A stretch of DNA of 64,000 nucleotides. Source: Actinacidiphila epipremni (GTDB lineage: Bacteria; Actinomycetota; Actinomycetes; Streptomycetales; Streptomycetaceae). Numbering within the stretch: the first letter of the stretch is position 1; each line of letters starts with the position of its first letter. Both the position numbers and the translations under genes were made by a program. The stretch covers positions 124,001 through 188,000 of the forward strand of contig NZ_JAATEJ010000007.1 in assembly GCF_012034175.1 (NCBI RefSeq), read 5' to 3'. The notes under the pieces are model-generated. The model made no database searches, was not told the DNA's origin, and worked only from the letters and a program-made list of their open reading frames with translations. Shown here piece by piece: positions 15,846 through 30,763 of this stretch.

Positions 15846-15946
15846 GCCCCCGCCGCACCCGGGGAGTTGTCCGGGAAATGGCCGGATCGGCGGTGTTGTC
15901 GGCCGGAAGCGGCGTGCCGCCGGGCGCCGCGGAGAAGACTGGGCGC

Positions 15947-18900
15947 ATGGCGGACATACGAGCCGATGTGACACGGATGCTGGCGCGCTGCGAGGCACCC
16001 TGGACCCCCGACGTGGAACGCGCGGTCGCCGCGGCCCAGGGCGGCGGGACCGACCGGCTGCTGCCGGCGGCTGCGGGCGCGCTGCGCGCCTCCTGGAACG
16101 AGGGCGGCCGGTCGGCGGCGGTCGCCGCGGTCGCGCTGCTGGAGACCGCGCTGGAGACCGGCGCACGCGACGACCCGATGCGCCCCCGCTGGGTCCTGCA
16201 CCTGTGGCTGGCCGAGCGGACCCTGTCCTTCCGCTACGGCGACCACCGGCTCTCGCAGGACATCCAGCACACCTTCGGCGCCCAGACGCAAGGGCGCTCC
16301 CCGGACGACCCGGTCGCGGTGGCGGCGGTGTACCCGGACGGGCCGCTGCCCCGCCACGGGGACCCGGTGGCGCCGGTGGAGCGGGCGGCGCTCCGGCTGG
16401 CCGGCACGCTGCCGCCCGACGACCCCGGCCGCCGCAGCGTCCTGGTGCGGCTGGCGCTGACCGCCGCCTACCGCCACGAGTCCGGCGACCCGGCGGCGCT
16501 CGCCGACGCCTGGCAGCGGGCCAGGGACGCCTACGAGGGCCTGGCCGTCGACCACATCGAGGCGCATACGGTGGCCAACGCGGTCGCCCACCTGGCCGGC
16601 GCCTGGTTCCGCGCCCACATGGACGACGAAGCCGCCACCGAACTCGGTGTCCGCGCCGGCCGGTCGGCGCTGGCCGCGGTACGGCACGCCCAGGACCACG
16701 GTGCCGCGTACGTCGGCTACGACCTCGCGGTGGCGCACTCCACGATGGCGCAGGCGCTGATGTGCCGTGCCTCGTGGGACCTCAGCCGTGAGACCGTCGA
16801 CGCCGCGATCGAGCACCTGGAGGCCTTCCGGGAGGCGGGACCGCCCGACGACGGCGGGATCTACGCCGGCAACATGGCCTCGATGCTCGCCGCCCGCGGG
16901 TTCCTGACCCGCTCGCGGGGCGACCTCGCCCGGGCCGCGGACCTGCTCGGCCGGCTGGAGAAGGACCTGCCGGTCGGCCATCCGCTGGTCGCGCCCGTCG
17001 CCCAGAAGCGTGCCGCCTGCGAGAAGCTGGCGGGCCTGATGCGGCGGGTGCCGTTCGACACCTCGGGGCTGCTGCGGCTGCTGCGCCCGCACGCGCGCCT
17101 GCTGATGATCCCGACCGCGCTGCCGCCGATCCAGATCCTCGCGCCGCTGCCCAGCCCCGGCTACCGCTCCCCGGGCCCGGGCCCGGCGGACTTCCGCGAG
17201 CGCTTCGGCGACCTCGGCTCCGGCCCGCCCGACGCCGCCGCGTACCGCCGGGCCCCGGCGGGACCGGGCGCCGTACCCGGGGCGCCGCCCGGTGGCGGGT
17301 GGAGCTGGCCGCCCGTGCCCGGCCCGGGGCCGGCTCCCGCGTGGCCGCAGGAGGCCGACACGGCCGGGATGCCGCCCGACGCCGCCGCCGTGCTCGGCGC
17401 CCTCGACGGCTCCACCGGCGTACCCGTCGACCCGCGCCGGCTGGAGCCCGCCGAGCGGCAGTTGCGGGCCCGGCTGGCCGAGCCGGGGCTGACCGAGGGG
17501 CAGCGCGGCTGGACGGCGACCGTCCTCATGAACGTCCTGGCGGCGCGGCTGGCCGCAGACCCGGGCCAGGAGCGCCTGCTGGCGGCGGTACGGACCGGCG
17601 ACACGGCGCTGGCCGGGCTGTCCCCGGCCGGCTCGCGCTACGTCGGGCTGCTCGACGTGGTGGAGACCCAGCGCCTCGCCCTCGGCGGCCTGACCGAGGA
17701 CCTGCCGACGATGGTGCGGGCCCAGGACGGCTTGCGCTGGGCCCTGGAGCACGCGCCCGCCGGATCGACGCTGTGGGTGCAGTGCGCCTACTCCTACGGC
17801 ATGGCGCTCGCCGGGGTCGCCAGGTTCCGCCGGGACGCCGACGCGGCACGCCGTGCCGTCGCGCTGCTGGCCGAGGCGTCGCAGCTGCTGGACCGGTTGG
17901 GGCAGGGCCTCCCGCCCGGCTCGCCGCAGGCCGCCGTCGTCACGCGGCTGCGCGTGCTGGTCGACCAGGTGGCGGCGGTCGTCGGCGGTCTCGACGCCGA
18001 GCTGCGCCACGACATCCACGACGCGCACGACAGGAAGATCCCGTGGGACCGCGCCGCCGGGGCCGCCCTGCCGCCGGCGACACGCTTCGCGCAGGCGCGC
18101 GGCGCCGCGGAGCGGGCGATGGAGGACAAGGACATGGCGGGCGTCGCCGACGCCGTCGAGGCCGCCCTGGAGGTGCTGCCGCTGCTCACCTCGCGGGCGC
18201 TGGACCGCGACGCCCGGCAGGAGGCGCTGCGCACCGCGCTGCTGGGCGGCCGGGCGTTTGACGCCTACGCCCGCGGCGACCGCGCCGACCTGCCCGACCG
18301 GCTCTCGGGCACGAGCCTGGGGCGGACCGGCTGCGCGGCGGCGGTGTCCGTCGGCGCCGTGGACCGGGCCGCCGTGCTGCTGGAGCAGGGCCGCACCGTC
18401 CTGATGAACCAGGACCTCGAAGCACGGGCCGACCTCACCGACCTGGCCGCCGCCGAGCCCGGGCTCGCCGCCCGGTTCACGGCCGCCGCCGAGCGGCTGA
18501 GCCGCGCCGAGACCGCGGCGGCGGGCGCCGGCGCCGGCCCCCTCGTCGACGAGCAGGACGCAGCCGCCGCCCAGTGGCGCGGGCTGCTCGCCGAGATCCG
18601 CTCCCGCCCCGGCTTCACCGGCTTCCTCGCGCCGCCCACCGCCGACGCCATCCGCGCCGAGGCCGCGCACGGGCCGATCGCCCTGATCAACGTGGACAAG
18701 CTGCGCTGCGACGCGCTCGTCGTCACCCCGGACGCGATCGTGCCCGTGCACCTCAAGGACGTCACCGAGGGGCTGGTGGCGCGCATGGCGCGGGACTTCC
18801 TCGCCGCCGCCGCGGTCGAGGACCGGCGCGGCACCCGGGCCGAAGAGGCCCGCGAGACGGTCTTCCGCACCCTGGAGTGGCTGTGGGACGCGCTGGCCGA

Positions 18901-19732
18901 ACCGGTCCTGGAGGCCGCCGGGTTGACCCGGCCGCTGCCGCCGGACACCCCCTGGCAGGACTTCCCCCGGATATGGTGGTCGGCCTCCGGACCGCTGGCG
19001 CACCTGCCGCTGCACGCCGCCGGCTACCAGCGCAAGGGCCGGCTGGACGTGCGGCGCTCGGTGCTGGACCGGGTCGCCTCCTCGTACACGCCCAGCGTCA
19101 GGGCGCTGCGGCACGCCCGGCAGGCGCCGGTGCCGGCCGGCGACGGCCGCTCCCATCTGGCGGTCGGCCAGCCCACCGGCGCGGACGGCTCGGCGGGCGC
19201 GTCCGCGCACGAGATCGCCATGGTCGCCCGGCGGCTCGGGGACACGCGGATCCTGGACGGCGGGGAGGCGACGGCGGCGGCGGTGCTGGCCGCGCTGGAG
19301 TCGGCGGGGGTCGCGCACTTCGCCTGCCACGGCCTCAGCGACCCCGCCGACCCCTCGCGCAGCCGGCTGGAGCTGGCCGACGGCCCGCTGGAAGTGCCGG
19401 CGATCGCCCGGCAGCGGCTGCGGACCGCGCAGCTCGCCGTGCTCCTGGCCTGCCACACCGCGCGCACCGACCGGCTGCCCGACGAGGCGATCCACATCGC
19501 CTCCGCCTTCCTCACCGCCGGCTACCCGCAGGTCGTGGGCACGCTGTGGGCGGCCACCGACCTGGTGTCGGTACGCTTCGCCGACCGCCTCTACGGCAGG
19601 CTGCGCCGCTTCGGCGGCGGCGTCGACCCGGCCCAGGCCGGCCGCGCGGTCACCGCGGACGTCCGCGAGCTGCGGGCGCGGTACGCCTCGTCCCCCGCGA
19701 CGTGGGCCGCGTACGTCCACACCGGCCGCTGA
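15947..19732 (+). CDS. TPR-CHAT (caspase-like) protease, probable conflict-system effector
   Basis: This is a 1261-residue protein. About 900 N-terminal residues are Ala/Leu/Arg-rich and helical, consistent with TPR-like repeats, interrupted by a Pro/Gly-rich linker (about residues 390-470). The C-terminal CHAT domain contains a peptide-like LPLHAAGYQ, then AHFACHG with catalytic His near residue 1128, and VLLACHTART with catalytic Cys near residue 1169, then FLTAGYPQVVGTLWAATD. Both catalytic residues are intact, so it should be an active cysteine protease. ATG at 15947 is preferred; ATG at 15878 is in frame. The small partner gene starts 55 bases downstream. CHAT/TPR proteins act in bacterial conflict and cell-death systems. 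Confidence 0.87.
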   Translation: MADIRADVTRMLARCEAPWTPDVERAVAAAQGGGTDRLLPAAAGALRASWNEGGRSAAVAAVALLETALETGARDDPMRPRWVLHLWLAERTLSFRYGDHRLSQDIQHTFGAQTQGRSPDDPVAVAAVYPDGPLPRHGDPVAPVERAALRLAGTLPPDDPGRRSVLVRLALTAAYRHESGDPAALADAWQRARDAYEGLAVDHIEAHTVANAVAHLAGAWFRAHMDDEAATELGVRAGRSALAAVRHAQDHGAAYVGYDLAVAHSTMAQALMCRASWDLSRETVDAAIEHLEAFREAGPPDDGGIYAGNMASMLAARGFLTRSRGDLARAADLLGRLEKDLPVGHPLVAPVAQKRAACEKLAGLMRRVPFDTSGLLRLLRPHARLLMIPTALPPIQILAPLPSPGYRSPGPGPADFRERFGDLGSGPPDAAAYRRAPAGPGAVPGAPPGGGWSWPPVPGPGPAPAWPQEADTAGMPPDAAAVLGALDGSTGVPVDPRRLEPAERQLRARLAEPGLTEGQRGWTATVLMNVLAARLAADPGQERLLAAVRTGDTALAGLSPAGSRYVGLLDVVETQRLALGGLTEDLPTMVRAQDGLRWALEHAPAGSTLWVQCAYSYGMALAGVARFRRDADAARRAVALLAEASQLLDRLGQGLPPGSPQAAVVTRLRVLVDQVAAVVGGLDAELRHDIHDAHDRKIPWDRAAGAALPPATRFAQARGAAERAMEDKDMAGVADAVEAALEVLPLLTSRALDRDARQEALRTALLGGRAFDAYARGDRADLPDRLSGTSLGRTGCAAAVSVGAVDRAAVLLEQGRTVLMNQDLEARADLTDLAAAEPGLAARFTAAAERLSRAETAAAGAGAGPLVDEQDAAAAQWRGLLAEIRSRPGFTGFLAPPTADAIRAEAAHGPIALINVDKLRCDALVVTPDAIVPVHLKDVTEGLVARMARDFLAAAAVEDRRGTRAEEARETVFRTLEWLWDALAEPVLEAAGLTRPLPPDTPWQDFPRIWWSASGPLAHLPLHAAGYQRKGRLDVRRSVLDRVASSYTPSVRALRHARQAPVPAGDGRSHLAVGQPTGADGSAGASAHEIAMVARRLGDTRILDGGEATAAAVLAALESAGVAHFACHGLSDPADPSRSRLELADGPLEVPAIARQRLRTAQLAVLLACHTARTDRLPDEAIHIASAFLTAGYPQVVGTLWAATDLVSVRFADRLYGRLRRFGGGVDPAQAGRAVTADVRELRARYASSPATWAAYVHTGR

Positions 19733-19787: not shown

Positions 19788-20174
19788 ATGACCCCCTCGC
19801 GCATCGGGCGCCACGCCGCCGACGACCTGCTGTTCGCCCTGGAGATCGTGCGGACCTGGATGCTGACGCCCGAGAACTGGCGGGCGACCGAGGAGCTGCT
19901 GGCCGAACTGGCCGCGGCCGTCGCCGAGGCGGACACCGCCCGGGTCGTCGAGGCGACCGCCGAACTGGAGTCGCTGGGCTGGCGGGTGAGCCGGGTCGCC
20001 GGCCAGGAGCCGGAGCCCGCCGACGGGCGGGTGCCGCTGCCCGGGCCGGTACGGGACCGGGTGGTGGCGCTGGTGCACGCGCTCGAACCGGACGCCCCGG
20101 CCGGCAGCCCGCCCACCGGGGCGCCGGGGAGGCCCGGAACGCCCGGGGCCGGGGCCGGCGCAGGAGTGGGATGA
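19788..20174 (+). CDS. small helical partner of the CHAT protease (CATASP-like)
   Basis: This is a 128-residue protein. The first 65 residues form an amphipathic helical domain (DDLLFALEIVRTWMLTPENW, then ELLAELAAAVAEADTARVVE), and the C-terminus is a Pro/Gly/Ala tail. From memory this resembles the small proteins called CATRA-associated small proteins, which are encoded beside caspase/CHAT-TPR genes. The family call is by eye only. It starts 55 bases after the CHAT gene on the same strand, so co-expression is likely. It may control or recruit the protease. Confidence 0.68.
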   Translation: MTPSRIGRHAADDLLFALEIVRTWMLTPENWRATEELLAELAAAVAEADTARVVEATAELESLGWRVSRVAGQEPEPADGRVPLPGPVRDRVVALVHALEPDAPAGSPPTGAPGRPGTPGAGAGAGVG

Positions 20175-20297
20175 TCATCGCACCGCGCCGGCCGTAAGGC
20201 GCGGGCACGGCCGGGGCCCGTCAGGGGCACCCGGCCGCGGGGCGTGCCGCGGACGGGGGTTCCGCGAGCGTGGTGGAAGGGGGACACCATTCTTTCG

Positions 20298-21002
20298 GTG
20301 CTGGGCAACATCGCGGTCGGGCTGGCGACCAGCCTGGTCGGCGGCGTGCTGGTGTGGCTGTGGGAGCGGGGCAAGCGGGCCCGGGTGGCGAACGGCAAGG
20401 CCGCGTTCTTCGGCGTGCGGCCCGGGGAGACCTGCCTGATCGTGCTCGGCGACAAGCACGACGCCCCCGGCACGTCGCCGCGCAGCGACGTCCGCGCGAC
20501 CGTCGAACTCGCCATGCTCGCCGCGGAATTGGGCTGCGACGTGGAGCTGGAGTCCGGCTCCTACCGGGGCAGCAACGGCGGCCGTACCGAATTCTGCGTC
20601 GGCGGCCCGCTGGGCGGGGCGAACCTCAGGACCGGCGGGCACCTGGCCGCGTACCTGCCGGGCGTGACCATCCACCCGTACGGCACCGGGCCCGACTCGG
20701 TCGCCCTCGCAGTCGGCGGCCGGCGCTACCTGTTCGACCACGACCGCCAGGAGTACGCGCTGGTCGCGAAGTTCACCCCGACCGAGGCCGGCCGCCCGGT
20801 GCTGCTGGTGTGCGGGCAGAGCTCGCTGGCCAACCAGGCCGCGATCCACTTCCTGCGCCGCGAGTACGCCCAGGCCGCCGCGCTGCTGGAGTCCGTGACG
20901 CGGTTCTGCCTGCTGCTGAAGGTCTCCGACATCGGGACGTACGGATACCACCGCACCGCCATCGAACGGGACGTCACCCGCGAGGCGTTCACCCGGCCCT
21001 GA
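20298..21002 (+). CDS. single-pass membrane protein with a cytosolic domain, unknown function
   Basis: This is about 234 residues from GTG at 20298. One N-terminal transmembrane helix (GNIAVGLATSLVGGVLVWLW) is followed by Arg/Lys, predicting a cytosolic C-terminal domain of about 200 residues. That domain has IVLGDKHDAPG, VRATVELAMLAAELG and VLLVCGQSSLANQAAIHFL, looking like an alternating alpha/beta fold. Start choice is uncertain. GGAAGGGGG at 20275-20283 stands 5 bases from an ATT at 20289 and 14 bases from the GTG; GTG at 20244 has no such site. It lies about 125 bases after the CATASP-like gene and may anchor the system to the membrane. No known family recognised. Confidence 0.72.
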   Translation: MLGNIAVGLATSLVGGVLVWLWERGKRARVANGKAAFFGVRPGETCLIVLGDKHDAPGTSPRSDVRATVELAMLAAELGCDVELESGSYRGSNGGRTEFCVGGPLGGANLRTGGHLAAYLPGVTIHPYGTGPDSVALAVGGRRYLFDHDRQEYALVAKFTPTEAGRPVLLVCGQSSLANQAAIHFLRREYAQAAALLESVTRFCLLLKVSDIGTYGYHRTAIERDVTREAFTRP

Positions 21003-21142: not shown

Positions 21143-21526
21143 TCAGATGCCCGTGTACCGCAGCGAGCCGTCCTCCGCGGCCAGCGCGTTGACGAACCGG
21201 CGGATCTTGCGGTTCGCCTTGACGCCGAAGGCCCCCAGCGCCTTGCCGACGCCCAGCATGATCTCCCGGTGGGAGCCGCGGTCCCACATGTTCATGTGGA
21301 CGGCCGACTTCTGTATCTCGGTGCCGCCGCCGCCGAGCACGGCCATCACCACGAAGTCGGGCTGGTCGCCGGAGAGCCGGTCGAAGACCGACCCGCGCGG
21401 CTCCTCGAACTGGGTCCCGGCGCCGCGGAACTCGCTCCACCAGCTCACCCGCATGGCGCGCTGGAACAGGGCGGCGACATCCTCCATCGGAAGCGTGGTG
21501 GTGATCTCCACCGGTTGTCTGGCCAT
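21143..21526 (-). CDS. conserved hypothetical protein, third gene of a reverse-strand operon
   Basis: This is a 127-residue protein with N-terminal MARQPVEITTTLPMEDVAAL and an unusual glycine-rich MAVLGGGGTEIQKSAVHMNM segment. The C-terminus is basic (VGKALGAFGVKANRKIRRFV). There is no signal peptide or membrane helix. ATG at 21526 has AGGAG 8 bases upstream; the frame is open to 21697. It follows the 57-residue Cys4 protein in the same direction, with a 49-base gap. I do not recognise the family. Confidence 0.7.
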   Translation of the reverse strand: MARQPVEITTTLPMEDVAALFQRAMRVSWWSEFRGAGTQFEEPRGSVFDRLSGDQPDFVVMAVLGGGGTEIQKSAVHMNMWDRGSHREIMLGVGKALGAFGVKANRKIRRFVNALAAEDGSLRYTGI

Positions 21527-21575: not shown

Positions 21576-21749
21576 TCACTTGCTTTCGAATTCCTTCGCG
21601 GTGAAGCGGTACCGCTTCCCGCTGTTGATGTAGTTCGCGCAGGCCGGATTACGGCATTCGTAATAGACCCAGCTCCCCATCGGCTCACGCCGCTCATTCG
21701 TCACGGACATGCGCTGACGGCACACGTCGCAGCTTCGCCCTTTGGCCAT
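21576..21749 (-). CDS. 57-residue Cys4 (zinc-ribbon-like) small protein
   Basis: Reading the reverse strand from ATG at 21749 to TGA at 21576 gives 57 residues. They begin MAKGRSCDVCRQRM, with a second cysteine pair in YYECRNPACANY, so CxxC and CxxxxC are about 19 residues apart, as in a zinc ribbon. The C-terminus is basic. AAAGG lies about 12 bases upstream of the ATG. The gene sits between two larger unknown genes transcribed the same way (gaps of 33 and 49 bases) and has lower GC than its surroundings. The function is unknown; nucleic-acid or protein binding is plausible. Confidence 0.72.
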   Translation of the reverse strand: MAKGRSCDVCRQRMSVTNERREPMGSWVYYECRNPACANYINSGKRYRFTAKEFESK

Positions 21750-21782: not shown

Positions 21783-22499
21783 TCACAGGGTCGGCGCGGG
21801 CAGCGGGATGAACGGCGCGAGGTCCGCGCCGGCCCAGTACGGCGGCACCTGGAGGGTTTCGCCGAGCCGGGCGTAGAGGTCGTAGAGGGTCGGCGCGCCG
21901 AACCACTCGAAGACCGAGCGCGTCGGGTCGGTGTCGCTGGCCCGCGCCTCGACGAGCAGCTGGAAGCCGCCGCCCGCGGCCCGCACCGACAGCACGTTGG
22001 AGTCCGGCGCGGCGGTGAGCACCGCCACCCGGCGGACCTCGCCCGGTACCAGCGGCGCGATCCGCACCGCCTCGCGGGCCGGCCGGGGCCGGCCGACCAG
22101 CCAGGTGTCGCCGCGGTGCCGCCGCCAGAACTGCCAGTCGCCCGCGGTGAGGCGGTTCTTGGGCACACCGGCGGCCCGGAAGAACTCCAGCGCGGCAAGC
22201 CTGACGGTGTCGTACGCCGGGTGCCGGAAGTCCGAGCCCAGCAGATTCCACACCGTGCGCGCGGCGCCGTAGAGGGCGAAGCCGCCGGCCGGCAGCACCG
22301 CCTCGGCCAACGCGGCGGCGAACCGGTCCGGTTCGGACTGGGCGAACTCCAGGAAGGGCGCCTGCAGGACCTCCCACACCACGGTGCCGTCCAGCTCCGA
22401 CCCGGCCGGGTCGAACTCGAACCGCCCGAACTGCTCCATCCGCGGCACGACATCGCGCGGCAGCCGGGCCGCCCCCTGGTCCCTGCGGGAAAACGACAT
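21783..22499 (-). CDS. conserved hypothetical protein, first gene of a reverse-strand operon
   Basis: This is a 238-residue soluble protein with no recognised family. N-terminal RMEQFGRFEFDP and VLQAPFLEFAQSEPDRFAAA are followed by aromatic-rich DWQFWRRHRGDTWLVGRP and, near the C-terminus, SVFEWFGAPTLYDLYARLGE. The starts ATG 22502 and 22499 are adjacent; AGGAGAG favours the second. Downstream are the Cys4 protein and the 127-residue protein, so this looks like a three-gene operon. It is divergent from an HTH regulator, with the shared region carrying phased CCGGAAAA boxes. Confidence 0.78.
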   Translation of the reverse strand: MSFSRRDQGAARLPRDVVPRMEQFGRFEFDPAGSELDGTVVWEVLQAPFLEFAQSEPDRFAAALAEAVLPAGGFALYGAARTVWNLLGSDFRHPAYDTVRLAALEFFRAAGVPKNRLTAGDWQFWRRHRGDTWLVGRPRPAREAVRIAPLVPGEVRRVAVLTAAPDSNVLSVRAAGGGFQLLVEARASDTDPTRSVFEWFGAPTLYDLYARLGETLQVPPYWAGADLAPFIPLPAPTL

Positions 22500-22576
22500 C
22501 ATCTCTCCTGACACTGCGCCGGATCGCTCCGGGCGGGATATGCGCACCGGCCGGCGACATCCGGTCTAACAGCGGG

Positions 22577-22763: not shown

Positions 22764-23702
22764 ATGGGTCGTCCGGAGCAGGAGATCACCCCCGACGGAT
22801 CACCGGTCCGGCTCCTCGCGTACTGGCTGCGCGAGCTGCGCGACGACAAGGGGATGTCCAACAAGTCCCTGATCAGCCGCACCGGTTACGCCAAGACCAC
22901 GCTCAGCGACGCCCTGGGCGGCCGGATCCTGCCCAGCCGGCCGGTGACCCTCGCGATCGTCGCGGCCTGCGGCGGCGACACCGAGCGCTGGGCGGCCTTC
23001 CACAGCCAGGTGCGCCGGGCCGTCGACCCGCACACCGTAGGACCGGCCGAGATCACCCCGCCGCCGTGGGGCAACCCCGCCGCCGCGCCGGGCGGCGTGC
23101 ACAACGAGCAGTGCCCGCCGAACTGCGCCTCCACCGAGCCGCACGGCTGGTACACCGACTCCGTCCGCACCCGGCTGAGCCTCGACACCGCCACGCCCGA
23201 GGCCGTCGAACGCCGGGTCGTCGTCGCCACCTGCGACGGCCTGACCCGCATCCCGCTGGCCTTCAGCGTGCCGCGGCACTCCGCCGACGCCGCCCCGCGG
23301 CACGGCCTGGACGTCACCGTCCGCCGCGGCGGCCGGCTGACGGCGGGCGAGCAGCCCTACGAGACCTTCTTCCGGCACCAGTTGCTGCTGCCCGCGCCGC
23401 TGCGCACCGGCGAGCGGCACGAGTTCGTGCTGCGGCTGCGGATACCGCCCAAGCAGCCCATGGCGCCGCACTTCGTGCACGTACCGCTCACCCGCAGCCA
23501 ACGCTTCAGCCTGGAAGTGCAGTTCGACCCGGCCCGGCTGCCGCGCGCGGTGTGGGCCCTCACCCATGTGCCCACCGCCGTCATCTACCAGCGCACCCCC
23601 GGCAACGCCCTGCTGCGCCCCGACCGGCACGGCTGCGTCGCCGCCGACTTCGAGGGGATGCGGGTGGGGTACGGCTACGGGCTGTGCTGGCGCGACGCCT
23701 GA
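22764..23702 (+). CDS. HTH-domain protein with an unknown C-terminal sensor-like domain
   Basis: This is a 312-residue protein. The N-terminus has an XRE-like helix-turn-helix (about residues 25-60): MSNKSLISRTGYAKTTLSDALGG, then RPVTLAIVAACGGDTERWAAF. The remaining 220 residues form a beta-rich domain including a short Cys pair (EQCPPNCASTE), FVLRLRIPPKQPMAPHFVHV and a C-terminal EGMRVGYGYGLCW. The C-terminal family is not recognised. ATG at 22764 follows GGGCGGGAG. It is divergent from the three-gene operon and convergent with the STAND ATPase gene, so it is the natural candidate to control the local operon. Confidence 0.75.
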   Translation: MGRPEQEITPDGSPVRLLAYWLRELRDDKGMSNKSLISRTGYAKTTLSDALGGRILPSRPVTLAIVAACGGDTERWAAFHSQVRRAVDPHTVGPAEITPPPWGNPAAAPGGVHNEQCPPNCASTEPHGWYTDSVRTRLSLDTATPEAVERRVVVATCDGLTRIPLAFSVPRHSADAAPRHGLDVTVRRGGRLTAGEQPYETFFRHQLLLPAPLRTGERHEFVLRLRIPPKQPMAPHFVHVPLTRSQRFSLEVQFDPARLPRAVWALTHVPTAVIYQRTPGNALLRPDRHGCVAADFEGMRVGYGYGLCWRDA

Positions 23703-23735: not shown

Positions 23736-26183
23736 TCAGCCCGCGGTCGCCGCCAGCTTGGCGCGGACCGCCGCCGCGTCCGGGTGGCGCAGCGCCTCCA
23801 GCACCGTCAGCGCCCGGGCGCGCAGCGCCCTGGACTCCTCGTGGTGGCCGAGCGCGGCGTGCGCGCCCGCCAGGTGGTCCAGGGCGTGGGCCTCGCGGTA
23901 GTGGTCGCCGAGCGAGCGGTCCAGCGCGAGGGAGCGGTCGTAGACGGCGACCGCCTCGGCGGGCCGGCCGAGCGCCTGCTCGCAGCGCCCGATACCGAGC
24001 AGGATGCCCGCCTGCCCGTCCAGATGCCGCAGCCGCTCGTACAACTCCAGGGCCCGGCGGGCGTGTTCCAGCGCCTCGGCGGGGCGGCCGAGGCTCTCCT
24101 CGGTCTGCGAGACCGCGGTCAGGCCATCGGCCAGCGCGAGCGGGTCGCCGGTGCGCGCGGCCCTGGCCAGGGCCAACCGGGCGTGCGGGAGGGCCCGTTC
24201 GTGGTGACCGGTCGAGGCGTACATCCGCACCAGCGACAACCGCACCTCCCGTACGCCCTCGTCGTCGCCCCGCTCCCGGCAGGCCCGCAGCGCCTCGTGC
24301 AGCAACTCCCGTGCCTCGGCGGGCCGGTCGAGCCGGGACACCGCGTCCCCCAGCTGCCGGGTCGCGGTGCACCAGGCCGCCCGGTCACCGGCCCGCCCGG
24401 CCGCCTCCCGGGCCAGTCCGTGCACCAGGCCGCGCTGGAAACGCCGCCCGGACCTGCGTAGATGGAGCGCGCACGCACGGGCGAGGCGCCATGCGTACGG
24501 CTCCAGGCCGCCGGTGGCCGCGGCCTGCGCCATCACCGCCTGCAACGTGGTGAGTTCGGCGTCGAACCACGCCGTGGCGGCGGCGTGCCCGTCGATCGGC
24601 GGCAGCGCGGCGGGCGCCGTGTCCGCCGTGTCCGCCGTGTCCGCCGGGTCCGCCGGGTCCGCCGGGTCGCCGGGGCCGGCGTCCGGCGCGGCCGGATGCC
24701 ACGGTTCGAGGTGCCGGTCGGCGAGCCGGGCCGCGGCCAGGTAGTGCCGCAGCAGCCGCTGCACCGCCGCCCGCGCCTCGCCCGGCGGGCCGCCGCCGGC
24801 CAACTCCCGTGCGTAGGCCCGCAGCAGGTCGTGCAGCGCGTACCGGCCCGGGCCCTGCTGCCGCAGCAGGTGCGCGGCGGTGAGCGCGTCGAGCTGGGCG
24901 CGCGGGGGACCCGCGGTGCCGGCCAGCGCCGCGCACGCGAAGTCGTCGATCTCCGGCCCCGGATGGCAGCCCAGCAGCCGGAAGAGCCGCGCGGCCGGCG
25001 GCGGCAGCAGGGCGTAGGAGCCGTGGAAGACACTGCGCAGGTCCAGATCGGCGTCCGCCTGGCCGAGCACGTCCAACTGCCCCTGCTCCGCCTCCCCTTG
25101 CGCCTGCCGCAGCTCGGTCACCAGGAAGTTCATCGAGCCGGTCGGGGCGGCGGCCACCCGGGCCGCGGCGACGGCCAGCGCCAGCGGCAACCGCGCGCAC
25201 AGGTCCACCAGTTCGTCGGCCGCGCGCGGCTCGCGGGCCAGCCGCGCGGCGCCCACCAGCCGCTCCAGCAGGCTCCGCGCGGCGTACCGCGGCAGCACGT
25301 CCAGGGTGATGCGCAGCGCGCCCTCCCGGACCACCAGGCCGTCCAGGCGGTTGCGGCTGGTGACGATCGCCAGGCAGCCGGGGGTGCCCGGCAGCAGCGG
25401 CCGGACCTGCTCGGCCGAGCGGGCGTTGTCCAGCACCAGCAGCACCCGGCGCCCGGTGAGCAGGGTCCGCAGCAGGGCCGCGGCCACCCGCTCGTGCGCC
25501 GGCACCGCCCCGGGCGCCACCCCGAGGGCCAGCAGGAAGCCGTACAGCGCCTCCCCGGCCTCCACCGGCGCCCCGGAGTCGAAACCCCGCAGATTGACGT
25601 GGAGTTGGCCGTCGGGGAAGCGGTCCTTCACCCGGTGCGCCCAGTGCAGCGCGAGCGTGGTCTTGCCCACGCCCGCGGTGCCCTCGATGACGGTCACCGT
25701 CACCGGGCGGGTGCCGGCGGCATCCGCGACCGCCGCCGACAGCGCGTCCAGGCGCCGCAGTTCGGCCTCCCGGCCGACGAACTGCGGGTAGGCCGCCGGT
25801 AACTGGCGCGGTACGGCGGCCGGTGCCGGGCCCGCGGGCGGCTCGTCGCCGGCCCGCCCCGCTGTGCCCCGGCGGCCGTGCCGCAGCCGGCGGGCCGTCT
25901 CCGCCGCGTCCCGCAGGGTCGCCAGCCGGCCGGCCTGCGCGCCGGTCACCCCGAGCGCGGCCAGCAGCTCGTCGAAGACCGCGGTCCCGGCCAGCGTCGT
26001 GCCGTTGAGGTACGCGTACAGGCTGCTCGGCGACACGTTGAGCCGCCGCGCCAGCTCGGCGCGGTCCACCGCGCGGCCCAGCCGCTTCTCGGCCCGCACC
26101 ACGGCCGCCGTCAACTCCGCGGCCAGCCGCTCGCGCAGCGCCCCGGCGTCGTCCGCGACGCCCACGGCAGGTGTTGCGTCCAC
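23736..26183 (-). CDS. HTH / NB-ARC / TPR STAND-type ATPase
   Basis: This 815-residue protein has an N-terminal helix-turn-helix (residues 42-60, LARRLNVSPSSLYAYLNGT) and a Pro/Ala linker. An NB-ARC ATPase follows, with FVGREAELRRLDAL, Walker A GTAGVGKTTLA (about 168-178), Walker B RVLLVLDN and the sensor TSRNRLDGLV. Next comes a winged-helix-like RYALHDLLRAYARELA segment, then about 350 residues of TPR repeats. STAND proteins of this layout are signal-dependent switches in regulators and conflict systems. A short repeated Asp/Pro/Ala stretch interrupts the middle. It ends 33 bases from the HTH gene, convergently. Confidence 0.9.
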   Translation of the reverse strand: MDATPAVGVADDAGALRERLAAELTAAVVRAEKRLGRAVDRAELARRLNVSPSSLYAYLNGTTLAGTAVFDELLAALGVTGAQAGRLATLRDAAETARRLRHGRRGTAGRAGDEPPAGPAPAAVPRQLPAAYPQFVGREAELRRLDALSAAVADAAGTRPVTVTVIEGTAGVGKTTLALHWAHRVKDRFPDGQLHVNLRGFDSGAPVEAGEALYGFLLALGVAPGAVPAHERVAAALLRTLLTGRRVLLVLDNARSAEQVRPLLPGTPGCLAIVTSRNRLDGLVVREGALRITLDVLPRYAARSLLERLVGAARLAREPRAADELVDLCARLPLALAVAAARVAAAPTGSMNFLVTELRQAQGEAEQGQLDVLGQADADLDLRSVFHGSYALLPPPAARLFRLLGCHPGPEIDDFACAALAGTAGPPRAQLDALTAAHLLRQQGPGRYALHDLLRAYARELAGGGPPGEARAAVQRLLRHYLAAARLADRHLEPWHPAAPDAGPGDPADPADPADTADTADTAPAALPPIDGHAAATAWFDAELTTLQAVMAQAAATGGLEPYAWRLARACALHLRRSGRRFQRGLVHGLAREAAGRAGDRAAWCTATRQLGDAVSRLDRPAEARELLHEALRACRERGDDEGVREVRLSLVRMYASTGHHERALPHARLALARAARTGDPLALADGLTAVSQTEESLGRPAEALEHARRALELYERLRHLDGQAGILLGIGRCEQALGRPAEAVAVYDRSLALDRSLGDHYREAHALDHLAGAHAALGHHEESRALRARALTVLEALRHPDAAAVRAKLAATAG

Positions 26184-26453: not shown

Positions 26454-28991
26454 TCAGCCGTCCGCCAGCGCCAGCACCCGCCGGGCCACGTCCGCCCAGG
26501 TCACCGCCTGCTCCACCAGATGCCGGCGGAGCTCCGCGGCACGCCGGAAGGACGTCGGCAGGTCGTACATCACCTGGCCGATCCGCGCCGCCCAGCGCGC
26601 CACGTCCTCCTCGATCCTGGCGGGCTGGCCCGCGACGTCGACGACCACCTGCTCCGCCCACCGCGCCGGCAGCAGCCCGGCCAGCATGATGCCCAGGCCG
26701 CTGCGCCCGCTGACCAGCGCGGGCACCGCGTCGCCCACGGCCTCGGCGCCCACCAGGCCGAAGGACTCCGCCCGCGAGGGCATCAGCACCAGGCTCGCGC
26801 GGGCCAGGTCGGCGGCGATCCGGGCCGGGTCCGGTGTGTACGGCCGCACCGTGACCTCGACCGCGGGGTTGTCGACCAGCGCCTCCACCTCGGCGCGCAC
26901 CGCCTGCGACGTCCCCTCGGCCGCGCCCCGTACCAGCAGCTCCCACCGCCCGAACGCGGACCGCTCGGGCACCGCCCGGCCCAGCGCCCGGCAGGCGATG
27001 TTCAGCCCCTTGCCCTCGTCGTCGGCCATCCGGCCCATCAGCAGGATCTGCGGCACGCCGGCCGGCGGCGGGTGCGGCCCCGGGCGGCCGGTGTCGAACC
27101 CGGGGTCGATCCGCAGCGTGGGCGGCAGGTCCTGGTAGGCGGGCACCCCGCGCTCACGCTCGACCATGCTCTCCAGGCGCGGCCCCACCGGCAGGATGCG
27201 CCAGGCCCCGCGCGCCAGCTCCAGCTCCAGCAGGGTGCGCTCCTCCGCGCGGGCCCCCAGGTCGTGGCCGCGGCCGTCCTTGAACCACTCGTTGCGGTCC
27301 GGCTCGACGTGCAGGAAGTGCAGCCGGCGCGGTACGCCCCCGAAGTGGTCCTCGGTCTGCGCACGGGCCGCCGGGCCGGTCAGCCTGCCGTGGCCGATGA
27401 CCAGGTCGGGTACGACGCCGGCCGGCAGCCGGGCCCGCCGCATCAGCGACGCGGGGCCGGCCAGGTCGGGCCGCGCGGCCTCCACCAGCCGCACCCCCGC
27501 CGCCGCGGCGTCCGCCTGCTCGGCCGGGCCCGCCGCCGGCAGCAGCACGTACACCTCGGCGCCGGCCGCCGCGAGCGCCCGGCACAGCGCCCGGTTGAGG
27601 TTGCTGACCCCGCCGTGCGCCGGCAGCCACTCGTCGACGACGGCGAGCACGCGCACGGGCCCGCGCGGCGCGACGCCGGAAGCCGCCCGCGGACCGCTCG
27701 CCGTACGCGCCACGGGCGCGGCTTCGGACGGCGGGTCGGCGGGGCGTACGGGCCCGGTGGCTTCCAACGGCGAGTCGGCGGGGCGTACGGGCGTGGCGGC
27801 CTCCGGCGGCGGATCGGCGAGAGGTGCGGGCCCGGGCCCGGCGGCCTCCGGCGGCGGGTCCGTGGGGCGTACGGGTTCCGGCTGCGGCTCGGCCGGCGGG
27901 GCCGGTGCGGGGTGCGGGGGGCGGTCGGTGGGGGTGGGCGGGGCGAATCGCAGCAGGGCCGCGTGGTCGGCGAGATCCTGGCGGAACCAGGCCACGAAGT
28001 CCCGGTCGTCGTCGAGCACCCGGCGGTCCGCCAGGGCGCCGGCGCCGGGCGACTCCTCGCACAGCCGCAGGGCCCGCCGCGCGTTGTCCCAGGCGGTGTC
28101 CACAGCCGTCCGCACGGCCGCCAGCCGCTCCGCGGGGGAGTCCAGGTCGACGAAGCGCTCGCCGTACGGCACACGCAGTACGGCCCGCGGCCCCGCGGCC
28201 CCCGGCGGCCCGCCGGCCGCGAGCCGCCGATGGGCCCGCAGCTGGTGGCGCAGCGCCGCCATGTGCATCAGGTAGCGCACGAAGGGCGGCATCGCCATGC
28301 TGCCGTTCGCCGACCAGGCCCACGCCGACAGCCGGCCGTCCTCACCGGGCCGCCCCAGCAGCCGCAGCCGCCGCAGGCTGCGCGGCTCGTCCGACCGGTC
28401 CGCCTCGGTGAGGTCCAGCGTGCCGGGCGCGCCCGCCGCGCTCTTGCCCAGCGCCAGCACCGCGCCGCCCAGGCACCCTCCGCCGAGCGTCCCGTCCGGC
28501 GCGCCGAGGACGCCGGCCATCCGCCGCTCCAGGTCCGGCCAGGCCCGCCCGGGGGCGGCGCCGAGCAGCAGCGAGAGGTTCAGCACCGCGCGGTCACGGC
28601 GTACGAGCATCTGGTCCAGCCCGGTGTGGCTCTGCGCGGCGGCGACCGCCACCGAGCCGTGCACCGGGGCCTGCGGCAGCGCGTCCGGCCGCCGGTGCGG
28701 GGTGGCCGCCCGCACCGGCCGGTCCGCGCCCTGCTGCCGGCCGAAGCGGTCCCACATCGCCCACAGCGACTCCTGCGCGGCTGCCGCGTCCGGCGCGTCC
28801 AGCGGCACGAAGACGTGCGCGGCGATCTCCTGCTCCCCGACTCTCTGCTCCCCGGCCTCCCGCTCCCCGATCGCCTGCTCCCCGGCCTCCCGGCCGGCGG
28901 GCGCCCGCCCGCCGGCGCCCCGCTCCGTGATCTCCTGCTCCGGGACCTCTCGTCCCGCGGTCCTTCGCGCCGCAGCGGGCGGTTCGGGCAT
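26454..28991 (-). CDS. CATRA-like domain fused to a GT4 glycosyltransferase
   Basis: This 845-residue protein has four parts. Residues 1-60 are a charged Glu/Gly/Arg repeat (EAGEQ-type units). About 60-360 resemble the CATRA domain of caspase/TPR conflict systems: AAHVFVPLDAPD, VAVAAAQSHTGLDQMLVRRD, AVLNLSLLLG and MPPFVRYLMHMAALRHQL. A repetitive Pro-rich linker follows. The last 400 residues are a GT-B glycosyltransferase: DEWLPAHGGVSNLNRALCRA, LLMGRMADDEGKGLNIA, and the PSRAESFGLVGAEA E-x7-E donor site. The family 4 call is firm; the CATRA call is from memory. ATG 28991 is chosen; GTG 29003 is possible. The acceptor sugar or protein is unknown. Confidence 0.8.
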   Translation of the reverse strand: MPEPPAAARRTAGREVPEQEITERGAGGRAPAGREAGEQAIGEREAGEQRVGEQEIAAHVFVPLDAPDAAAAQESLWAMWDRFGRQQGADRPVRAATPHRRPDALPQAPVHGSVAVAAAQSHTGLDQMLVRRDRAVLNLSLLLGAAPGRAWPDLERRMAGVLGAPDGTLGGGCLGGAVLALGKSAAGAPGTLDLTEADRSDEPRSLRRLRLLGRPGEDGRLSAWAWSANGSMAMPPFVRYLMHMAALRHQLRAHRRLAAGGPPGAAGPRAVLRVPYGERFVDLDSPAERLAAVRTAVDTAWDNARRALRLCEESPGAGALADRRVLDDDRDFVAWFRQDLADHAALLRFAPPTPTDRPPHPAPAPPAEPQPEPVRPTDPPPEAAGPGPAPLADPPPEAATPVRPADSPLEATGPVRPADPPSEAAPVARTASGPRAASGVAPRGPVRVLAVVDEWLPAHGGVSNLNRALCRALAAAGAEVYVLLPAAGPAEQADAAAAGVRLVEAARPDLAGPASLMRRARLPAGVVPDLVIGHGRLTGPAARAQTEDHFGGVPRRLHFLHVEPDRNEWFKDGRGHDLGARAEERTLLELELARGAWRILPVGPRLESMVERERGVPAYQDLPPTLRIDPGFDTGRPGPHPPPAGVPQILLMGRMADDEGKGLNIACRALGRAVPERSAFGRWELLVRGAAEGTSQAVRAEVEALVDNPAVEVTVRPYTPDPARIAADLARASLVLMPSRAESFGLVGAEAVGDAVPALVSGRSGLGIMLAGLLPARWAEQVVVDVAGQPARIEEDVARWAARIGQVMYDLPTSFRRAAELRRHLVEQAVTWADVARRVLALADG
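27690..27920 (-). repeat. coding repeat: Pro-rich linker of the CATRA-glycosyltransferase
   Basis: Four to five degenerate in-frame units of roughly 40-50 bases, each containing a GGCGGGGCGTACGGG-like core, encode repeats of the form RPADPPPEAAGP. They join the CATRA-like and glycosyltransferase domains. Repeat copy number is likely to vary between strains, changing the spacing of the two domains without breaking the frame. Confidence 0.65.

Positions 28992-30763
<1,772 letters not shown>

Follow-up and report, generated by a model that had tools for sequence, protein, structure and literature searches.

The window, a stretch of 64,000 nucleotides from the 8.2 Mb genome of Actinacidiphila epipremni, contains a cassette of genes for a CHAT protease, a CATASP, a membrane protein (hereafter MEM), four accessory proteins, an NB-ARC protein, and a CATRA-GT4 protein whose gene lies ~5.5 kb beyond MEM (table 1). 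Open reading frames agree with the initial annotation of this DNA in placing the CHAT gene, the gene of a 128-aa protein, and the membrane-protein gene in series on the same strand.

Table 1. Genes of the cassette and their positions in the window.
Feature	Position	Strand	Evidence and remarks
CHAT caspase-like protease gene	15947..19732	+	Start uncertain, 15878-15947; Pfam CHAT 9.7e-43
CATASP (CATRA-associated small protein), 128 aa	19788..20174	+	PF20271 7e-15, above cut-off
MEM, single-pass membrane protein, predicted cytosolic alpha/beta domain	20298..21002	+	Start uncertain; homologues, AF2
127-aa companion	21143..21526	-	Translation; no Pfam match; look-alikes by eye in L034, L060, L065
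57-aa zinc-ribbon-like companion	21576..21749	-	CxxC and second Cys pair, label by eye; translation
239-aa companion	21783..22502	-	No Pfam match; homologues in cassettes
HTH regulator-like gene (HTH_31)	22764..23702	+	Pfam 2.2e-8; synteny
HTH / NB-ARC / TPR gene	23736..26183	-	NB-ARC 2e-7, TPR_12 4.6e-17, HTH_3 8.5e-6 (Pfam); synteny
CATRA-N / CATRA-C / GT4-conflict effector gene	26454..29003	-	PF20269 5.3e-24, PF20270 2.6e-6, PF20706 6.6e-120

Composition and conservation of the cassette

The CHAT domain (PF12770) occupies residues 975–1260 of the 1261-aa reading from 15947. It has the motifs HFACHG (residue 1124) and LLACHTA (residue 1166), which we presume to contain the catalytic His and Cys, and HFACHG and LLACHT are intact in all seven CHAT proteins compared, that of the window included. 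Upstream of the domain, Pfam finds no TPR repeats at E ≤ 1. The 128-aa protein matches the CATASP family at 55.1 bits (cut-off 29) and would serve as an adaptor. The effector protein combines CATRA-N (85.6 bits, cut-off 27), CATRA-C (28.7 bits, cut-off 24.6, with a best stretch of only profile positions 1–22 of 137), and a full-length GT4-conflict domain (401 bits). The last retains the EX7E motif (ESFGLVGAE at residue 746), which we take to be catalytic, and in both its length and this motif it is like other GT4-conflict effectors (PF20706). CATRA stands for caspase and TPR repeat-associated, and the original description of the systems is reportedly that of Burroughs and Aravind in 2020. Because Pfam recognizes CHAT, CATASP, CATRA-N/CATRA-C, and GT4-conflict together, the region is, at the level of sequence, one end of a predicted CATRA ternary conflict cassette, which is a kind already known.

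The cassette has in common with CATRA systems its CHAT protease, CATASP, CATRA-N/CATRA-C, and GT4 effector domain. Beyond these parts, it includes MEM, whose family the libraries that we searched do not name, two companions without a Pfam match, and the 57-aa companion. CHAT proteases are also found in other settings, such as Csx29 TPR-CHAT (Craspase), and gasdermins are cleaved by CHAT proteases. The NCBIfam model of Csx29 TPR-CHAT and the protein in the window share the CHAT protease domain, and the match is to the CHAT part only (1.3e-10, 40.8 bits, below the cut-off of 300). A Pfam scan of ten proteins of the window gave no match to a CRISPR or gasdermin family. According to the GT4 passage of PMC8195603, the effector of caspase-dependent CATRA systems can be GT4; the passage names no membrane partner, whereas the GT4-conflict effector of the window has one.

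The run of CHAT, CATASP, and MEM, followed by the 127-, 57-, and 239-aa companions, HTH, NB-ARC-TPR, and CATRA-GT4 genes, recurs in four of 297 family-sample genomes (the window, G018, G056, and G269). In a scan of genome contigs, it is also found in L085, L089, L094, and L105, and in L098 it is interrupted by a contig end. Two further scan loci (L087 and L106) apparently repeat the records of G269 and G056, so the scan and the family sample are not independent, and nine cassettes were counted. Genes were matched by BLAST, except for the 127-aa and 57-aa companions, which were compared by eye; a stretch like that of the 57-aa companion is present in L034 only. In the cassette of L085, no 239-aa gene was called; the homologues of this companion in cassettes are 53–66% identical, and its AF2 model is poor (pLDDT 69).

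CATASP is directly before MEM in all nine cassettes (window, G018, L085, L087, L089, L094, L098, L105, and L106), which is beyond chance, and the three-gene order is conserved. The gap between the two genes is 9–10 nt in six of seven scan cassettes, suggesting co-expression, and 79 nt in L085. For the window, a start of MEM at GTG 20298 would put the two genes 123 nt apart. The far (GT4) ends of related cassettes are richer (L073:16877-19901, L060:1-1942, L065:17790-19701, and L085:18202-20693). Extra genes at this end include a second CATASP in G018, G056, and G269 and a CHAT-like gene in L073 and L085; both are absent in the window, where another gene begins at 29324.

Topology, fold, and relatives of MEM

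The open reading frame of MEM ends at 21002 and has three candidate starts: GTG 20244 (252 aa), ATT 20289, and GTG 20298 (234 aa). Five CATRA-linked homologues start with MLSV(I/L), at which place the window reads ATT CTT TCG GTG. A rare ATT start is possible, as is one of the GTG starts. MEM of L074 likewise has ATT at the place where the five homologues have their ATG.

A hydropathy scan identified one membrane segment, which is N-terminal and directly followed by a basic stretch. According to the positive-inside rule, a basic flank marks the cytosolic side, and the remaining domain of ~195 residues is therefore predicted to be cytosolic. This is in keeping with the initial annotation, which described a single-pass membrane protein with a 200-residue cytosolic domain. 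It had also assigned no recognized family to the membrane protein and its 128-residue neighbor. The neighbor is a CATASP, and for MEM the statement holds across the libraries searched: models of Pfam, NCBIfam, PADLOC, and PHROG gave no match, and the family is unnamed in any of them. Against Pfam, MEM of the window has nothing at E ≤ 0.5, and stray matches were obtained for one to four of 45 members (best E of 0.027). No relatives were confirmed in viral contigs, and one plasmid record has a relative at 35%.

The AF2 model of MEM, built with 45 sequences, has a pLDDT of 91 and a pTM of 0.85. It predicts a continuous helix (residues 2–38) that runs from the membrane segment into one compact alpha/beta domain. 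The top structural neighbor of the model in VIA-align is the flavodoxin-like domain of cellulose synthase BcsB (Z of 12.0, 2.4 Å over 127 residues), followed by N-terminal domains of glycoside hydrolases (Z of 10–11) and an anchor domain of archaeal S-layers (Z of 10.2). Foldseek returned no match at E ≤ 0.001 (best E of 5.6e-3), and a 45-sequence profile matched no PDB chain at E ≤ 10, so the likeness to BcsB that these searches show is one of fold. BcsB, like the role considered for MEM below, is a partner of a glycosyltransferase. It differs in being periplasmic, in being joined to carbohydrate-binding-like domains, and in having a family-2 transferase as partner, whereas the domain of MEM is predicted to be cytosolic. 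Caspase folds also appeared in VIA-align (Z of 5.3–5.4) and were set aside as inside the background of the tool.

Fourteen residues of MEM are invariant in all 45 aligned sequences. Seven of them (E98, G102, G103, P104, N109, R111, and H115) are on a single strand-loop-helix of the AF2 model and on this account resemble a ligand site, and we regard the motif as a putative one.

MEM has a paralog throughout the genus. All 35 genomes of the genus sample have a match to the family at 35–40% identity (partial in G022), and this core paralog carries the same invariant motif. Around the core paralogs of L033 (7686-8447), L035 (7940-8695), and L037 (7942-8799), there are no homologues of the CHAT or GT4 genes of the window. 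In a phylum sample of 396 genomes, the MEM family was found in 10 genomes, all within the family to which the window belongs. Copies in Actinomadura, Frankia, Streptosporangiales, and cyanobacteria came from the genome-contig scan. In G085, the match to the MEM family is in two pieces that are ~26 kb apart (C1:4296729-4297124 and 4323413-4323736).

The scan yielded 79 loci (the best 80 of 560 relatives), which were divided on the basis of identity and kind into 52 of conflict type (L074–L124 and L143) and 27 of paralogous core type. A quick tree was built from the window, G018, G034, and 62 of the 79 scan loci (65 sequences in all). It separates the core group with an SH-aLRT of 100, and L124, which was counted as conflict type, falls among the core sequences. 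Labels change twice along the tree for CATRA and six times for each of two other GT4 labels. The placement of the cyanobacterial sequences is unsure because the long branches of the core group and three cyanobacterial rows meet, and several branchings inside the conflict group are provisional.

Association of MEM with CHAT and with GT4-conflict

The initial annotation tied MEM to the CHAT protease and suggested that it could be a pore-former activated by cleavage. Among the best 80 of 560 relatives, CHAT and CATASP adjoin MEM in just seven of 52 conflict-type loci, some of which are cut by contig ends. In the family sample, conflict-type MEM (E ≤ 1e-45) is present in 16 of 297 genomes and CATASP in 23 (27 places, one under the cut-off), and the two are neighbors in four of the 16. 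The co-occurrence (four of 16 genomes with MEM hold CATASP, versus 23 of 297 overall) has a p of 0.027 when genomes are treated as independent. MEM is mostly without CHAT and CATASP in both family sample and scan, and we reject it as a CHAT-specific partner.

It is very improbable that MEM is a pore-former or another killing effector freed by CHAT. The codirectional CHAT, CATASP, and MEM genes with their short CATASP-MEM gaps, as well as the intact CHAT motifs, fit such a role. In addition, the GT4 that adjoins MEM in L092, L103, and L104 carries a fused caspase-type protease, and the caspase-type part in L104 is also recognized by the CHAT model (27.7 bits, cut-off 24). Against it are the rarity of CHAT beside MEM and the form of the protein. 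Gasdermin-type pore-formers have an exposed linker at which the neighboring protease frees a pore-forming part, whereas the model of MEM, with its continuous helix and single compact domain, is predicted to have no linker. Residues 20–46 are basic and gap-free in 44 of 45 aligned sequences (L131 begins later), and they follow one pattern across conflict-type sequences with and without CHAT and a related pattern in core sequences; a cleavable linker that goes with CHAT was not observed. No pore-former is among the listed Foldseek or VIA-align neighbors of the compact fold and no gasdermin chain was recognized there, which does not imply exclusion or prove absence. Of the membrane-linked cascade that was originally proposed, a conserved gene run in a predicted conflict system is supported; MEM as the substrate of CHAT or as a pore is not.

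GT4-conflict is associated with MEM more broadly. Matches are present in 25 of the 52 conflict-type loci (best 80 of 560 relatives), including a fragment of 125 residues in L090. Nineteen are within 200 nt of MEM, which is arranged tail-to-tail to GT4 in ten, directly downstream in seven (one beside the fragment), and upstream in two. The other six are CATRA cassettes, in which GT4 is 4.4–5.3 kb away and MEM sits beside CHAT and CATASP rather than beside the GT4 domain. Around the 27 core-type loci among the same best 80 of 560 relatives, there are no GT4-conflict genes. Two cyanobacterial copies of MEM (records of Trichocoleus and Coleofasciculus, 35–36% identity) are each directly followed by a GT4-conflict gene (2.9e-76 and 5.5e-78); at 1e-30, none of 14 control genomes has a match.

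The GT4 domains near MEM are joined to diverse partners. Fusions next to MEM include caspase-AAA-GT4 (L104), AAA_16/STAND-like-GT4 (L074), TIR-GT4 (L114), and, with EAD2 at 18.9 bits and below its cut-off of 23.8, EAD2-GT4 (L109). Stand-alone GT4 genes are next to an NB-ARC-TPR homologue in L099, L102, and L107 (BLAST). Pfam identifies a NACHT protein with GT4 in L036, and a protein of L095 is 39% like it (BLAST), with AAA domains only according to Pfam. This diversity bears on whether MEM could be a sensor, whose conserved pocket binds a ligand derived from the cell wall or a nucleotide sugar and signals damage from infection to the effector. We consider this unlikely: a sensor is expected to go with one type of trigger, yet MEM accompanies the effector across several. 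The invariant pocket-like motif, a fold common to carbohydrate-linked domains, and the same-motif paralog across the genus sample are consistent with sensing.

The GT4-conflict model also matches ordinary GT4s, with hits in all 297 family-sample genomes and all 14 controls. From the family-wide search, which scored six candidates per genome, we used only the places above a clear break in E among the matches listed: 28 full-length ones at E ≤ 7.4e-86 and the split GT4-conflict genes of G096 and G055 (the next match is at 1.3e-24). Eight of 16 MEM places are within 6 kb of one of these 28 places, and nine of 16 genomes with MEM hold GT4-conflict, compared with 26 of 297 overall (both among the matches listed; p of 5.5e-7 with genomes taken as independent). 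Distance matrices of MEM and GT4 are correlated over 27 loci (Mantel r of 0.79, 0 of 5000 permutations) and over 24 loci that exclude L109, L119, and L120 (r of 0.67, 0 of 5000 permutations). Joint inheritance alone may explain this correlation.

Each of the two genes is also found alone. Among the matches listed, MEM is absent at 20 of the 28 full-length GT4-conflict places (tblastn at E ≤ 1 across the surrounding 11–13 kb). A GT4 gene was called at 17 of these 20, seven at 43–49% and ten at 28–33% identity to that of the window. Conversely, GT4 is absent in 27 of 52 conflict-type loci (best 80 of 560 relatives); 20 of these have at least 5 kb on both sides and seven have less on one side, including the interrupted CATRA cassette of L098. 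Of nine genomes with a GT4-less MEM that were searched in whole, two hold GT4-conflict elsewhere and seven have none at E ≤ 1e-30. Pairing is therefore frequent and obligatory in neither direction. A crude hydropathy scan of GT4 proteins that lack MEM gave mixed results, flagging internal stretches in only part of them, and substitution of MEM by their own membrane segments was not adopted.

Two further readings of MEM were weighed. MEM could be an immunity or tolerance protein that shields a membrane target of the host from the GT4 toxin, in which case the copies that stand alone would be orphan immunity genes. The close arrangements with GT4, the GT4-less copies, and the paralog in all 35 genus-sample genomes fit this, and GT4 domains occur in predicted secreted toxins too, as stated in the GT4 passage of PMC8195603. 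However, at least seven fairly close GT4-conflict genes are without MEM, and an effector that is off until triggered should not require an antidote, making this fairly unlikely as an explanation. Alternatively, MEM could be a passenger, an envelope gene of housekeeping or mobile kind whose position near GT4 genes is incidental. MEM and GT4 are often without each other, and solitary copies of MEM have common neighbors, by eye, in Actinomadura (L108, L111, L112, and L143) and in L115 and L117. The passenger explanation is nevertheless quite improbable given the adjacency of MEM and GT4 across two phyla and several architectures and the lack of GT4 in the 27 core-type loci.

Two observations concern GT4-conflict genes elsewhere. 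The source genome has a second one (G000:C19:55339-56466, L161) that is beside the gene of a 1192-aa protein and has no MEM nearby. In L167, L169, L170, and L171, distant GT4-conflict domains follow N-termini with an AGNAAVVQM-like stretch, which in our view resemble cargo of extracellular contractile injection systems.

A possible role for MEM at the membrane

In our best reading of the sequences, the likeliest partner of MEM shifts from the protease to the glycosyltransferase. We tentatively favor for MEM the role of an accessory that is anchored in the membrane and serves the GT4 effector, whatever the trigger. Put forward with slightly more caution is a wider possibility, that MEM represents an unnamed family of trigger-independent, membrane-anchored partners of GT4-conflict in Actinomycetota and Cyanobacteriota, which would dock the effector or present its acceptor and would be related to a housekeeping protein that occurs across the genus. 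The triggers meant are CATRA/CHAT, caspase, STAND, NACHT, NB-ARC, TIR, and perhaps EAD2.

In the cassette of the window, the NB-ARC and CATRA parts would detect an invader, and the CHAT protease with CATASP would free or activate the CATRA-GT4 protein. MEM would tether the glycosyltransferase to the inner side of the membrane, or present a carbohydrate or lipid-linked acceptor to it. The activated transferase would then glycosylate something at the membrane, and growth or phage production would stop. The activation steps (sensing, cleavage by CHAT, and release of GT4) are proposed by analogy with conflict systems of this kind.

In the limited collection that we searched, we found neither an experimental study of CATRA or of GT4-conflict effectors nor a paper on a MEM-like partner. 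According to the GT4 passage of PMC8195603, GT4-conflict domains are found repeatedly, both in conflict systems of prokaryotes and in immune-type proteins of animals, and their target is unsettled, with invader molecules or the interface between molecules of invader and host having been proposed. A comparable pattern, the repeated joining of one module to unrelated immune systems, is described for nuclease-protease pairs in PMC12799240.

The occurrence of MEM under differing triggers provides a concrete handle on the site and substrate of the GT4 effector. The frequent link between MEM and GT4 is a hint that the cell membrane is the place of action of this effector, which is still poorly understood. 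If the proposed role is true, a GT4 immune effector would work on the inner side of the membrane, with a component of the envelope or a lipid-linked molecule as its acceptor.
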